Virus record (IMG/VR): IMGVR_UViG_3300047200_000113
Coordinates: 1-23,089 of that record
Strand: one strand, 5' to 3'
Source: a virus
Length of the DNA: 23,089 nucleotides
Part shown: positions 3,601 to 22,804 of the stretch, piece by piece
How positions within the stretch are numbered: the stretch's first letter is position 1
How the letters are laid out: every line of letters begins with the position of its first letter
Made by a program: the position numbers and the translations under genes
Notes under the pieces: generated by a model
The model's database searches: none
What the model was told of the DNA's origin: nothing
What the model saw: only the letters and a program-made list of their open reading frames with translations

Positions 3601-6600
3601 TTAACTTGTGAATTTATTAATACTCTATTAGTTGAATATGATACTGTAAATGTAGTAGAAATTCCAGAAGTTACATTTAATTTAATTAAATTGCCAGAAC
3701 TCAATCCGTGAGTAGATGCAGTTGATACTGTGCATTCATTTTTGGTTACTGTTCCTACAATTACATTTCTATTAGTAGTAAATTTATGTAAACTACCAGT
3801 ACCAGCTGCTGTATATGTTAAAATTTTATTTGGATTTGAAATATTAGTTTTACTTGTAACAAGACCAACTATATCATTTTCAAGTTTTAATACATATAAT
3901 TCTGAAAGGGAAGATAGGTTGCCATAATTTGATACTATTGTAGAAGTTCCTGAAGTATAATTAACTTTATCTCCTGTATTAAATTTATTATTTGGCAAGT
4001 AAATTCCACCAGTAGGAACATACTTAAAGTATGAAACTCCAATACCAAGAGGATATATTGTTAATGTATTTCCAATTCCAACAGAAGTTCCAATACCAAC
4101 AGATACTGATCTGGTGGAATTAAAATAATAGGATTCATTTTTTATAGAATATGCAGAAGTAATGCCAGAAGAATCAAATGTAAATTTATTTGACAGTAGT
4201 TCAACTACTTCTGTTGTTGTATGTGAAGGATTTCCAGAATCTCTCAAAATATTAATTAAATTATTTTTATAATCTAAACCTATTACTGTTACTATTTCAT
4301 TATTAATTTTTATTTGAGAATCTATATCAAAAGAATTGATAGGTTCATTGACTTGAATTGATGTAACTATTCCAGTTGTTGATGATGGTCCAATATTTGA
4401 AGTTAATCTAGTGGAAATATTAAAGGTTGAAATTTTTCTAAACCCTTCTATTTCTTTAAAGTAAGTAGAAACTCCAGATATGTTTACATAAGAATTGTTT
4501 TTTAAAGAATGGTAAGTTGATGCAATTCCTGTTGTGGTAGTTCCATCAGAAATAAAAGTTACATTTGAAAAATTGGTAGTACTACTAGAAATAGTACTAA
4601 TACCAACACCACCAATTTCTGAAACTTTTGCAATTGCTCCAAAACCAGAAGTTCCTTCATCATCAAATATAACAGAATCATTTACTTGATAATCTAATCC
4701 ACCATCTATAATATTAATTTCATCTACAACGCCAGTAGATGTTTTTTGAACTATTATATCCTTTTCATTTGAATTATTGAAGAATTCAAAGTATTCATAC
4801 TTATAATGATTATCTTCTACTCTATATGGAGAAGTCCATTTAACAATATTAAAATTATTAAAGTTTAATGTTTGATTATTTTTAAGATCAAAATTTTCTT
4901 GTGTTGAAGTATAATTATATTTTGGACCTATTACATAAGGAAATTCTGGTGTATTTGTAGTATCTAAAGTACAAAAATATGCATAAACCCCATTTGGATA
5001 CTCTGGAGTAACGCAAAATCTTCCATTATATTCATCCAAAGTTCCTGAATTATTAAAAACATAATCCTCAACCAAAGTAAAAATACTACCAACTGTATTG
5101 TTATAAGTATATCCACTTCTCATTCTAATTATTGATCCAGTCCCATCTATATTATCAAAAGCATAAGGTCCATAGATTGGACATCCATCATATGCCCATC
5201 CAACAATTGGAGAATGATTTGCTGGTGAATTTGGAATATTTAAAAATTGCCTTAAACTTTGATTTAAGAAATACACTCCATAAGTATTTCCAACATTAGA
5301 ATAATTTTTACCAAAAATTGCACCATCTTCAATATTTGATAATCCATTTTTAATTATATCATTTACTGTCCAAGATTTTAATTTTGCCTTTAAGTTTACA
5401 TTTTTTCCTATTGAAACAATTTGTATTGATGTATTGCTAGAAGCATATCCTACGCCAGCATTTACAATTTTGACTGATGTAATAGACCCCTGAGAAATAA
5501 TAGGTTCAAGTTTTGCTCCAAATCCACTTCCAGTTACAATAAGTTCTAATGAATTAAAATAACCAGAACCAGAGTTTTTAACAACAACTTCATTAATTCT
5601 TCCATCTACCACTAGTGGTTGTAAAGATGCATTAACACCTTCTACTATTTCAATAGTTGGATTTTTTTCATAATTAAGTATATTTTTATTGCCAAAATTA
5701 TCTGTTGAAAGAGTGACAGGATTTTTTTGAATTTTTGCTTCAGTTACTATCCCTTTAACAATAGGAACTATAGTAGCATTATATCCAAGAGTAGATATTC
5801 CAGATACAGAAATTGTACCTAAAATTTCAACTCTAATTGGAGAGTATTCTAGAAAATATGTGGTATAATTGTTTGAAGATGTAAAATCTACATAATTGGC
5901 ATCATTTTTAATATTTGAAAGTTTAAAATTATTACTGTCTACTTTGGACACATAATAAAATGTGCCAGAGGATAATCCTACTATAGTTCCTCCAACAGTA
6001 GTTCCAATGCCAGCAGACCAAGTATAAAGAACTTCTTCGCCAGTAGAAAATCCATGCTCTTGTATAGAAATAATATTATCTTGAATATTGACATCATCAC
6101 TAGTAAATGATAATTTTTTATATTCAAAATCTTTTTCATTTTGAATAATATTTACTTCATCAATTCCTTTTTTTGGAAGAGTAGAGATAAAACTTTGGAA
6201 TCCTCCTCCATAAGTTCTAAGATTAATTAAATTTGTTTGTGATAATGCATTAGATTGATTAAAAGCAAGACTCATAGAAGTTCCTGCACCAATGTTAGAA
6301 ACATAATATACAGAATTGTCTATCAAAAATCCATCTGAGGTAGCAGTTCCAATTCCAATAGCAGTAGTTCCAAGAGTTTTGTATAAAACTGGTTCTCCTA
6401 GTATAAAGTTATGTTTAGAATTAAAAATAAATTTATCTGATACTGTATTGATAACAGTATCTTTAGTTGATGCATTAAATGTAACTTGATTAGTTACATT
6501 TTTCATTTTAACTTCAGTAACTACACTTGTATTATTTCCCCCCAAAACTTTTACTGTTGGAACTTCAATATAATCAAATCCAGGATCAGTTATAGATAAA

Positions 6601-18402: not shown

Positions 18403-18474
18403 AGCCTCAGACAAGATTTGAACTTGCGACCTATCGCTTACAAGGCGATTGCACTACCACTGTGCTACTGAGGC
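18403..18474 (-). tRNA. tRNA-Thr (anticodon UGU)
   Basis: A complete 72-base cloverleaf: acceptor GCCTCAG/CTGAGGC, D stem GCAC/GTGC, anticodon stem ATCGC/GCGAT with loop CTTGTAA (anticodon TGT, reads ACA), T stem GCAAG/CTTGT with one G-U and loop TTCAAAT. The discriminator base is U and CCA is not encoded. It sits ten bases after the stop of the 98-residue gene and 11 bases before the inverted repeat of cassette D, so it is probably cut from a longer transcript. ACA codons are common in AT-rich phage genes, which would explain carriage. Confidence 0.95.
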
Positions 18475-21930: not shown

Positions 21931-22695
21931 CTATGCTACTTGTTTTCTTTTGGAAGTGTCTATTCCTCTTTTCTTTTGATAGTTTGAAAGGGCACCAGAA
22001 TTAGTAATATAACCAGTTTCAAGACACATCCATTTTTGAGAATTTACTTTTTGAATAATTTTTAACCTTTCTTCTGGTGATATAGAAAAGACACCAATTT
22101 TTAGTTCATAAGTTTTTTTACCACCCTTTTTACCATCTTTTGATTTCTCATCTTCTGTCCTACTATGAATACCTTTACCAAGTTCTTTACACTTATTTCC
22201 ACCCATTTTAGCAACTTCAACTCTTTCTTCTTGCGTAAAATTGTGAATACCAACTTTCAATTCTACAAATTTATTACCAACTTCTCTTCCAATATTTTGT
22301 CTCAAAATTCTAACATCTTCACTAATAATACCCATCTTTTCTCTGGTTTCTATTGAATGCACCCTTCCTTTATTTTTTTCAGTAATTAGCACACTAAATC
22401 TATTTCTACATTTTTCATAAAGATAAGAATTATAATATCTTTTATTACCTTTCATTCTTATATGAGCATAAGTCATTTTATGAGTTTTATAATGATGTAA
22501 TCCGTATCTTTTTATAAATGCCTTTTCTAATAGTGCGTGTGCGATATAATGTTCTCTTGCCGTGAGCACTACAATTCTTTTATTCTTTCCAAAGATACTT
22601 ACTGGAAATGTATGATGTTTTTCTATATAACCTTCAGGAGGAGTTCTATTCTCTGCTTTCCTGATAAGATTACAATAAACCTTTAGATAGTTCAT
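21931..22695 (-). CDS. Free-standing HNH homing endonuclease
   Basis: A 254-residue basic protein. The HNH core is at residues 23-56: YIEKHHTFPVSIFGKNKRIV then REHYIAHALL (His27, His28, His49, His53). Residues about 136-215 hold three degenerate repeats of about 26 residues (VGNKFVELKVGIHNF, GGNKCKELGKGIHSR, GGKKTYELKIGVFSI), probably DNA-binding units, and the C-terminus (CLETGYITNSGALSNYQKKR) resembles NUMOD-type helices. Such enzymes nick or cut phage DNA and spread between phages. I chose the ATG at 22693-22695; the frame extends upstream but runs into a hairpin and a promoter. It stands between two small-gene groups with no interrupted gene visible. Confidence 0.88.
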   Translation of the reverse strand: MNYLKVYCNLIRKAENRTPPEGYIEKHHTFPVSIFGKNKRIVVLTAREHYIAHALLEKAFIKRYGLHHYKTHKMTYAHIRMKGNKRYYNSYLYEKCRNRFSVLITEKNKGRVHSIETREKMGIISEDVRILRQNIGREVGNKFVELKVGIHNFTQEERVEVAKMGGNKCKELGKGIHSRTEDEKSKDGKKGGKKTYELKIGVFSISPEERLKIIQKVNSQKWMCLETGYITNSGALSNYQKKRGIDTSKRKQVA

Positions 22696-22706
22696 TTCTA
22701 CTCTGT

Positions 22707-22778
22707 TGTGGTTCGCAATACTATTTATACAAGAAAAGGTGCAAAAGCACCTTTTCCACCTGATAGATGCGAACCACA
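22707..22778 (-). other. Nested hairpin in endonuclease leader
   Basis: An outer 11-bp stem (22707-22717 with 22768-22778, TGTGGTTCGCA/TGCGAACCACA) encloses an inner perfect 10-bp stem with a 4-base loop (22733-22742 with 22747-22756). The inner hairpin may terminate read-through from the upstream gene. The outer stem ends about 12 bases before the endonuclease ATG. Confidence 0.85.
22722..22729 (-). promoter_or_regulatory. Exact T4 late promoter inside the hairpin
   Basis: TATAAATA on the minus strand, the exact T4 late consensus, lies between the inner hairpin and the downstream outer arm. Predicted initiation near 22716 would make a transcript without the upstream arm, so it could not form the outer stem. 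A further late-like CATAAATA lies at 22789-22796, before the hairpin. Confidence 0.7.
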
Positions 22779-22804
22779 CAGGTGTTATTATTTATGGTAG
22801 TTCA

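Follow-up and report, generated by a model that had tools for sequence, protein, structure and literature searches.

The window analysed here, a whole stretch of 23,089 bases from an IMG/VR virus record, has its best DNA matches among Synechococcus phages and is of T4-like cyanophage origin; the nuclease gene of the isolate S-SRM01 is one of these matches. On its minus strand lies a nuclease gene in whose product the residues EKHH..N..REHYIAH can be read off, and which we assign, from this motif and its PHROG match, as a free-standing HNH homing endonuclease (Table 1). The protein has no match in Pfam, and no solved structure is similar to it by sequence. Because the gene is placed among small genes that all lie on one strand, transcriptional read-through into it is likely. 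A module of the form ACACTTGA..GGCACAGGGGCACTT...TATAATAC, which resembles a sigma-70 early promoter with an extended -10 element, recurs before small genes in this phage group. In the whole window TATAAATA was observed once against 4.3 expected from shuffles and TAAATA 35 times against 51, a deficit that is consistent with avoidance of stray late promoters.

Table 1. Features of the window and of the nuclease leader (window positions unless a locus is named)
Feature	Position	Strand	Remarks
HNH homing endonuclease, 254 aa	21931..22695	(-)	start ATG 22695; phrog_655 (homing endonuclease) match, E=2e-24
Whole cassette	~22795 to ATG 22695	(-)	begins at first late-promoter box, 22794-22789
Site 1, TAAATA late-promoter core, in ATAAATA	22789..22794	(-)	predicted +1 22783; 5' boundary of mobile cassette
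P1 hairpin	22757..22784	(-)	CACCTG 22784-22779 pairs with CAGGTG 22762-22757; 5' arm of the outer stem lies in the loop
S2 outer stem, 5' arm TGTGGTTCGCA	22768..22778	(-)	antisense to late mRNA start
Inner hairpin GAAAAGGTGC TTTT GCACCTTTTC, then TTG	22733..22756	(-)	terminator-like, GC core and T run; arms 22733-22742 and 22747-22756
Site 2, TATAAATA, embedded late promoter of nuclease gene	22722..22729	(-)	predicted +1 22716
S2 outer stem, 3' arm TGCGAACCACA	22707..22717	(-)	extends, with bulged A, to CAG 22705-22703
Early-promoter-like module	21940-21870	(-)	also in loci L085 and L086, about 4900-5010
tRNA-Thr (TGT) gene	18403-18474	(-)	

The leader of the nuclease gene is built from two nested stems and an exact T4-type late promoter. 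The arms of the outer stem (S2, 11 bp) and of the inner stem (10 bp, 4-nt loop) are each 100% complementary, and site 2 occupies the stretch that separates the inner hairpin from the downstream outer arm, exactly as the initial annotation had described. With T4 spacing, in which +1 lies 6 nt past the box, the late start is predicted at position 22716, inside the downstream arm as had been proposed. The CAG to which this arm extends adjoins a weak Shine-Dalgarno GAG, and ACAGAGTAGAA lies between the arm and the ATG. The predicted fold of the minus-strand RNA 22783-22680 has an energy of -41.2 kcal/mol (z -6.9; none of 200 shuffles was as stable) and pairs part of the GAG. In RNA starting at site 2 the 5' UTR is predicted to be free of structure, which agrees with the claim that the late RNA, beginning within the arm, cannot form the fold. 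A simple terminator scan of the window did not call the inner hairpin, presumably because its T run is counted into the stem; in nearly all relatives the same element is found, followed by TTTT. The feature had been placed at 22693-22778, an interval that holds the core stems and the promoter but falls short of the cassette's upstream end near 22795, and neither P1 nor the second late-promoter box, at the boundary of the cassette, had been mentioned. An alternative longer frame, opening at GTG 22779, runs through the leader and is not conserved; a conserved leader peptide was rejected, as such frames are open in some members (the window and locus L002) and broken in others.

To what extent is this arrangement conserved? 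A protein search with the HNH enzyme brought up 80 viral loci that code for related proteins, and comparison of their upstream regions revealed the same anatomy almost everywhere, in the order (A/C)TAAATA, 5 nt, P1 with the 5' arm in its loop, terminator-like hairpin, TATAAATA, complementary arm and ATG (type I). The arm complementarity around the late promoter extends to these homologous genes: all 63 distinct leaders have a post-promoter arm that is complementary to the upstream arm, over 9-16 bp and with 34 different arm pairs among them, so that the combination of hairpin and late promoter is far beyond chance. The protein of locus L004 is 87% identical to that of the window, and its arms are different yet complementary. 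Site 2 is kept as TATAAATA in nearly all leaders, with NCTAAATA and NATAAATA as rare variants. The type I stem mostly reaches to 6-7 nt before the ATG, with the Shine-Dalgarno only partly inside it. An extra TATAAA-like insertion of 8-10 nt (TATTATAAACTCT or TATTATAAAGTA) is present between the terminator-like hairpin and the late promoter in L009, L012, L038, L067, L098, L101 and L103, and is common to several nuclease families. The possibility that the loop guides insertion to a target site was discarded, as identical arms are found at different flanks (L074, L075, L076). No Rfam family matches the leader at or above the gathering cut-off, the leader pattern was not found in four enterobacterial T4-like relatives of the HNH enzyme that were checked, and one 32-base leader pattern had no match in bacterial genomes.

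The leader is not confined to HNH genes. When viral contigs were scanned with two leader-only patterns, the downstream gene was always homing-endonuclease-like and often belonged to one of several GIY-YIG-like families rather than to HNH. A structural scan of all fetched loci, which asked for two TAAATA boxes, arm complementarity and an ATG, returned 110 distinct leaders, about twenty of which had not been seeded by any earlier query; it hit 170 places, whereas five dinucleotide shuffles gave 0-1 each and reversed sequence gave none. Among 101 downstream proteins, 65 match PHROG 655 and 64 match PHROG 314, both annotated as homing endonuclease, while their N-terminal parts form eight groups that show no BLAST similarity to one another at E 1e-4. 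Judged by these sequence groups, the cassette stands before no fewer than eight kinds of nuclease N-terminus, HNH and several GIY-YIG-like ones. The C-terminal NUMOD-like module of the window enzyme is common to GIY-YIG-like enzymes: the element KWMCLETGYITNSGALSNYQKKRGIDTSKR is found in the HNH enzyme and in two GIY-YIG-like enzymes, as is LETGYITNSGALSNYQKKRGIDTSKR (window 22695-21931; L122:12680-13462; L101:4209-4925). Because this module is held in common, it appears that catalytic domains have been swapped between a leader and a DNA-binding end that both stay in place.

The pairing of the two arms and of P1 was evaluated in a covariation alignment (A1) of 50 leaders, in which P1 and the S2 core were treated as a pseudoknot. 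Together they are 89.7% paired, compared to 69% after shuffling, with a covariation score of 0.566 versus 0.215; these values draw largely on related sequences, and the independent events are fewer than the counts. Sliding the alignment by one to three columns cuts the score to about 0.12 or less. Full S2, extended to 6-7 nt before the ATG, is 86% paired with a score of 0.555 versus 0.185. Because the arms covary across many phages, we conclude that their pairing is selected. The P1 helix is present in 108 of 110 leaders, compared to 51 in the shuffle null, and takes 53 distinct forms. Its 5' strand doubles as the basal part of the extended S2, and P1 and S2 therefore compete. By folding energy S2 wins in the full-length RNA and P1 prevails only when the RNA stops short of the 3' arm; it forms, for example, in the predicted fold of a 54-nt RNA. 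As P1 is conserved, yet appears only in the fold of a truncated RNA, a truncated or nascent RNA would seem to have a function. The candidate RNA from site 1 would be 50-72 nt long (median 59) with a mean z of -4.3 in the predicted folds. In the predicted short RNA the antisense arm is more unpaired than in shuffles (0.66 vs 0.47), and the duplex with the mRNA has a predicted mean energy of -22.7 kcal/mol.

Site 1 marks the upstream end of the conserved unit. In 108 flanks the sequence upstream of it is random and conservation starts sharply at (A/C)TAAATA, a set that was chosen to contain TAAATA; in the unselected test, the leaders found by protein homology alone, TAAATA lies 3-6 nt before P1 in 58 of 63. 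The predicted +1 of site 1 is a purine in 105 of 110 leaders. A resident late promoter as the source of site 1 was rejected, as the insert-free relatives L084 and L086 have no TAAATA at the spot; in L085 the cassette lies one gene further downstream. S-SRM01 has genes for both gp55 (“sigma factor for late transcription”) and a late promoter regulator. Of 37 hand-picked late genes in this phage, about 31 have TAAATA 15-55 nt upstream, in the form NATAAATA in 26 cases and NCTAAATA in 6, and NATAAATA is the published cyanophage late promoter (PMC2984593). Site 1 thus appears to be a genuine late promoter that travels with the cassette; the RNA made from it would have its predicted 5' end at the foot of P1 and its predicted 3' end at the terminator-like hairpin.

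As a check that does not depend on the downstream gene, the whole S-SRM01 genome (240,842 bases) was scanned at every TAAATA regardless of gene. Ten of 274 sites exceed the complementarity cut; three of them, low-scoring and chance-like, fall within or overlap unrelated genes, and all seven credible sites precede known or likely endonucleases. Leaders precede gp030 and gp066 (both HNH), gp075 (a NUMOD3 nuclease), gp297 (a homing endonuclease) and gp091, which is annotated as hypothetical and starts with MTSQ as does the GIY-YIG-like family. The hypothetical gp152 has a type II leader (described below) whose arm is identical to that of type II leaders before GIY-YIG genes. The leader of gp207, endonuclease VII, is a simple T4-style hairpin, a perfect 17-bp stem that has TATAAATA in its loop and includes the start codon in its 3' arm (NC_070963, about 126120-126180; L141). 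Other endonuclease genes of this phage have no leader, and the leader is hence not universal. The psbA gene of S-SRM01 is annotated in two pieces around a homing endonuclease (207378-209040, gp319-gp321; L143), probably reflecting an intron.

A more compact architecture, type II, emerged from divergent relatives, whose pattern TGGGCAGCAA...TTGCGTAAGTCCCA matched 52 stretches. Here a hairpin with the arm in its loop is followed by a T-rich stretch, NATAAATA and the complementary arm. All but two of the distinct matches read out show this compact logic; the two, L148 and L163, have one identical match without a late promoter, probably by chance or unrelated. In 35 of 41 leaders the complementary arm stops no more than 1 nt away from the ATG, 29 ending 0-1 nt before it and 6 overlapping it by 1 nt. 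Type II leaders precede GIY-YIG, HNH and PD-(D/E)XK-like nucleases, the last class being assigned by eye. An exact TAAATA upstream is found in only 12 of 41, GTAAATA being the usual form, and because site 1 is weak in type II the site-1 RNA would not be universal and action in cis is favoured there.

A late promoter within a hairpin is a known control device of Aeh1 mobE (a free-standing HNH gene), segB and I-TevI/II/III, as described in the review PMC2988022. With these the cassette shares the late promoter between the arms of a hairpin over the ribosome site, an RNA made late that escapes the fold, and the homing endonuclease gene; in the window, the predicted read-through stem covers the start region. 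The initial annotation had likened the window to I-TevI and, because the HNH enzyme is unrelated, suggested convergence. Its logic of read-through and late RNA is borne out by the predicted fold just upstream of the start codon and by the covarying arms, and as a cis mechanism it is plausible. The framing as convergence does not stand: the cis logic is already known, including for the HNH enzyme mobE, and in this phage group one shared cassette moved between nuclease families rather than being invented independently. In contrast to the mobE, segB and I-TevI leaders, the cassette holds the 5' arm in the loop of an extra hairpin, has a terminator-like hairpin between the arms, is opened by a second late promoter, and serves unrelated nuclease families as one unit.

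The P1 loop is complementary to the predicted start of the nuclease mRNA. In IS10, RNA-OUT is transcribed from the strand opposite to RNA-IN; its hairpin loop is complementary to the 5' end of RNA-IN, and the duplex extends along one flank of the stem. Common to both would be a hairpin loop complementary to the very start of the mRNA that encodes the enzyme of a mobile element, whereas the candidate RNA of the cassette would be encoded upstream, in tandem and on the same strand, from a duplicated late promoter. A further regulatory RNA tied to a homing endonuclease in a T4-like cyanophage is CfrI of S-PM2, about 225 nt long and antisense to psbA and the nuclease gene (PMC2984593); unlike the cassette it does not form a leader, and its structure is different. 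The wcaG RNA (RF01761) is also a structured RNA of cyanophage leaders, and in S-SRM01 it lies at 191427-191524 (L002 1908-2005), upstream of a glycosyltransferase gene that precedes a leader-bearing nuclease. A relation to it was rejected, since sequence and structure differ, no late promoter lies inside it and it does not match the cassette.

We hypothesize that translation of the nuclease is restrained by pairing of the upstream arm with the first 10-15 nt of the mRNA, in three steps. The first is the anatomy itself, which, like the covariation, the cassette boundary and the sharing among nuclease families, is read directly from the sequences: the cassette opens with a late promoter of its own (site 1), followed by P1, whose loop carries the antisense arm, then by the terminator-like hairpin and site 2, from which the mRNA is predicted to start at or beside the first paired base, with the start codon some 20 nt further on. 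In the second step, which follows the T4 precedent, early and middle read-through RNA that passes the terminator would pair in cis and block the ribosome site, so that only the late site-2 RNA would be translated. In the third, a step without precedent in these phages, site 1 would yield at late times an RNA of 50-70 nt ending at the terminator-like hairpin, whose loop would base-pair in trans with the beginning of the site-2 mRNA; P1 would then unzip as pairing ran on down its 5' strand, in the manner of RNA-OUT and RNA-IN of IS10, and the nuclease dose would be capped. A separate antisense RNA of about 55 nt is suggested because site 1 and P1 are not needed for the cis hairpin. We consider this combination of cis silencing and a trans-acting antisense RNA, with predicted promoters, terminator and short RNA, to be somewhat more probable than not, and with it the reading of the feature as the 5' control region of a mobile homing-endonuclease cassette. 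The more specific proposal, that a portable cassette for HNH, GIY-YIG-like and PD-(D/E)XK-like enzymes uses a duplicated late promoter to make a same-strand antisense hairpin RNA of about 55 nt as a dose limiter, is put forward tentatively, at slightly less than even confidence.

The main alternative, which we regard as a real but lesser possibility, is a pure cis stage switch of the I-TevI or mobE kind, in which P1 would be a folding intermediate and site 1 either unimportant or a means to stop upstream translation. Steps two and three of the combined model predict similar sequence constraints. The switch is known for T4 I-TevI/II/III and segB and for Aeh1 mobE (PMC2988022; PMC3014915), the RNA of the window folds as it would demand, and read-through into the nuclease gene is likely. 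The mostly missing clear site 1 of the type II leaders and the classical simple hairpin of gp207, with TATAAATA inside, also fit it. On the other hand, it leaves unexplained the (A/C)TAAATA boundary with its near-fixed spacing to P1, the covariation of P1, and the display of the arm in a loop in both architectures.

Action at the DNA level, with the inverted repeat round the late promoter binding a protein such as the endonuclease itself as autorepressor, finds a parallel in I-TevI, which autorepresses at an operator overlapping its late promoter (PMC2988022). It is improbable here: within one HNH family the arms are very diverse, and even the window and L004 enzymes have different arms despite their close identity, while complementarity, loop display and +1 placement are kept. 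Still less credible is an ordinary terminator followed by a late promoter, with an incidental outer stem. A terminator-like hairpin does adjoin the promoter, and late promoters do precede most of the sampled S-SRM01 late genes, yet the outer stem is complementary in all 63 distinct leaders and shows compensatory changes, the covariation contradicts it, and among the S-SRM01 TAAATA sites the outer stem is seen only at endonuclease-like genes. Least probable of all is a self-cleaving or catalytic RNA, for although the order P1(5')-S2(5')-P1(3')-hairpin-S2(3') recalls the pseudoknot topology of HDV-like ribozymes without P3, there is no Rfam ribozyme match even at E=10 and no invariant core nucleotide outside promoters and stems.

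Rfam and the open-access papers searched hold no description of the leader, and to that extent the cassette appears to be new, as do the double promoter and the use of one leader by unrelated nuclease families. Homing endonucleases are selfish cutters that must attack rivals without harming their carrier, and the leader probably delays the cutting enzyme until late and then holds it at a low dose. The leader signature finds phage nucleases that are not annotated as such, for example gp091 and gp152 of S-SRM01. A single control cassette travelling with different nuclease domains would, if true, provide T4-like phages with a candidate family of sequences for tandem antisense control, and it would mean that expression control itself is a mobile and exchangeable module.
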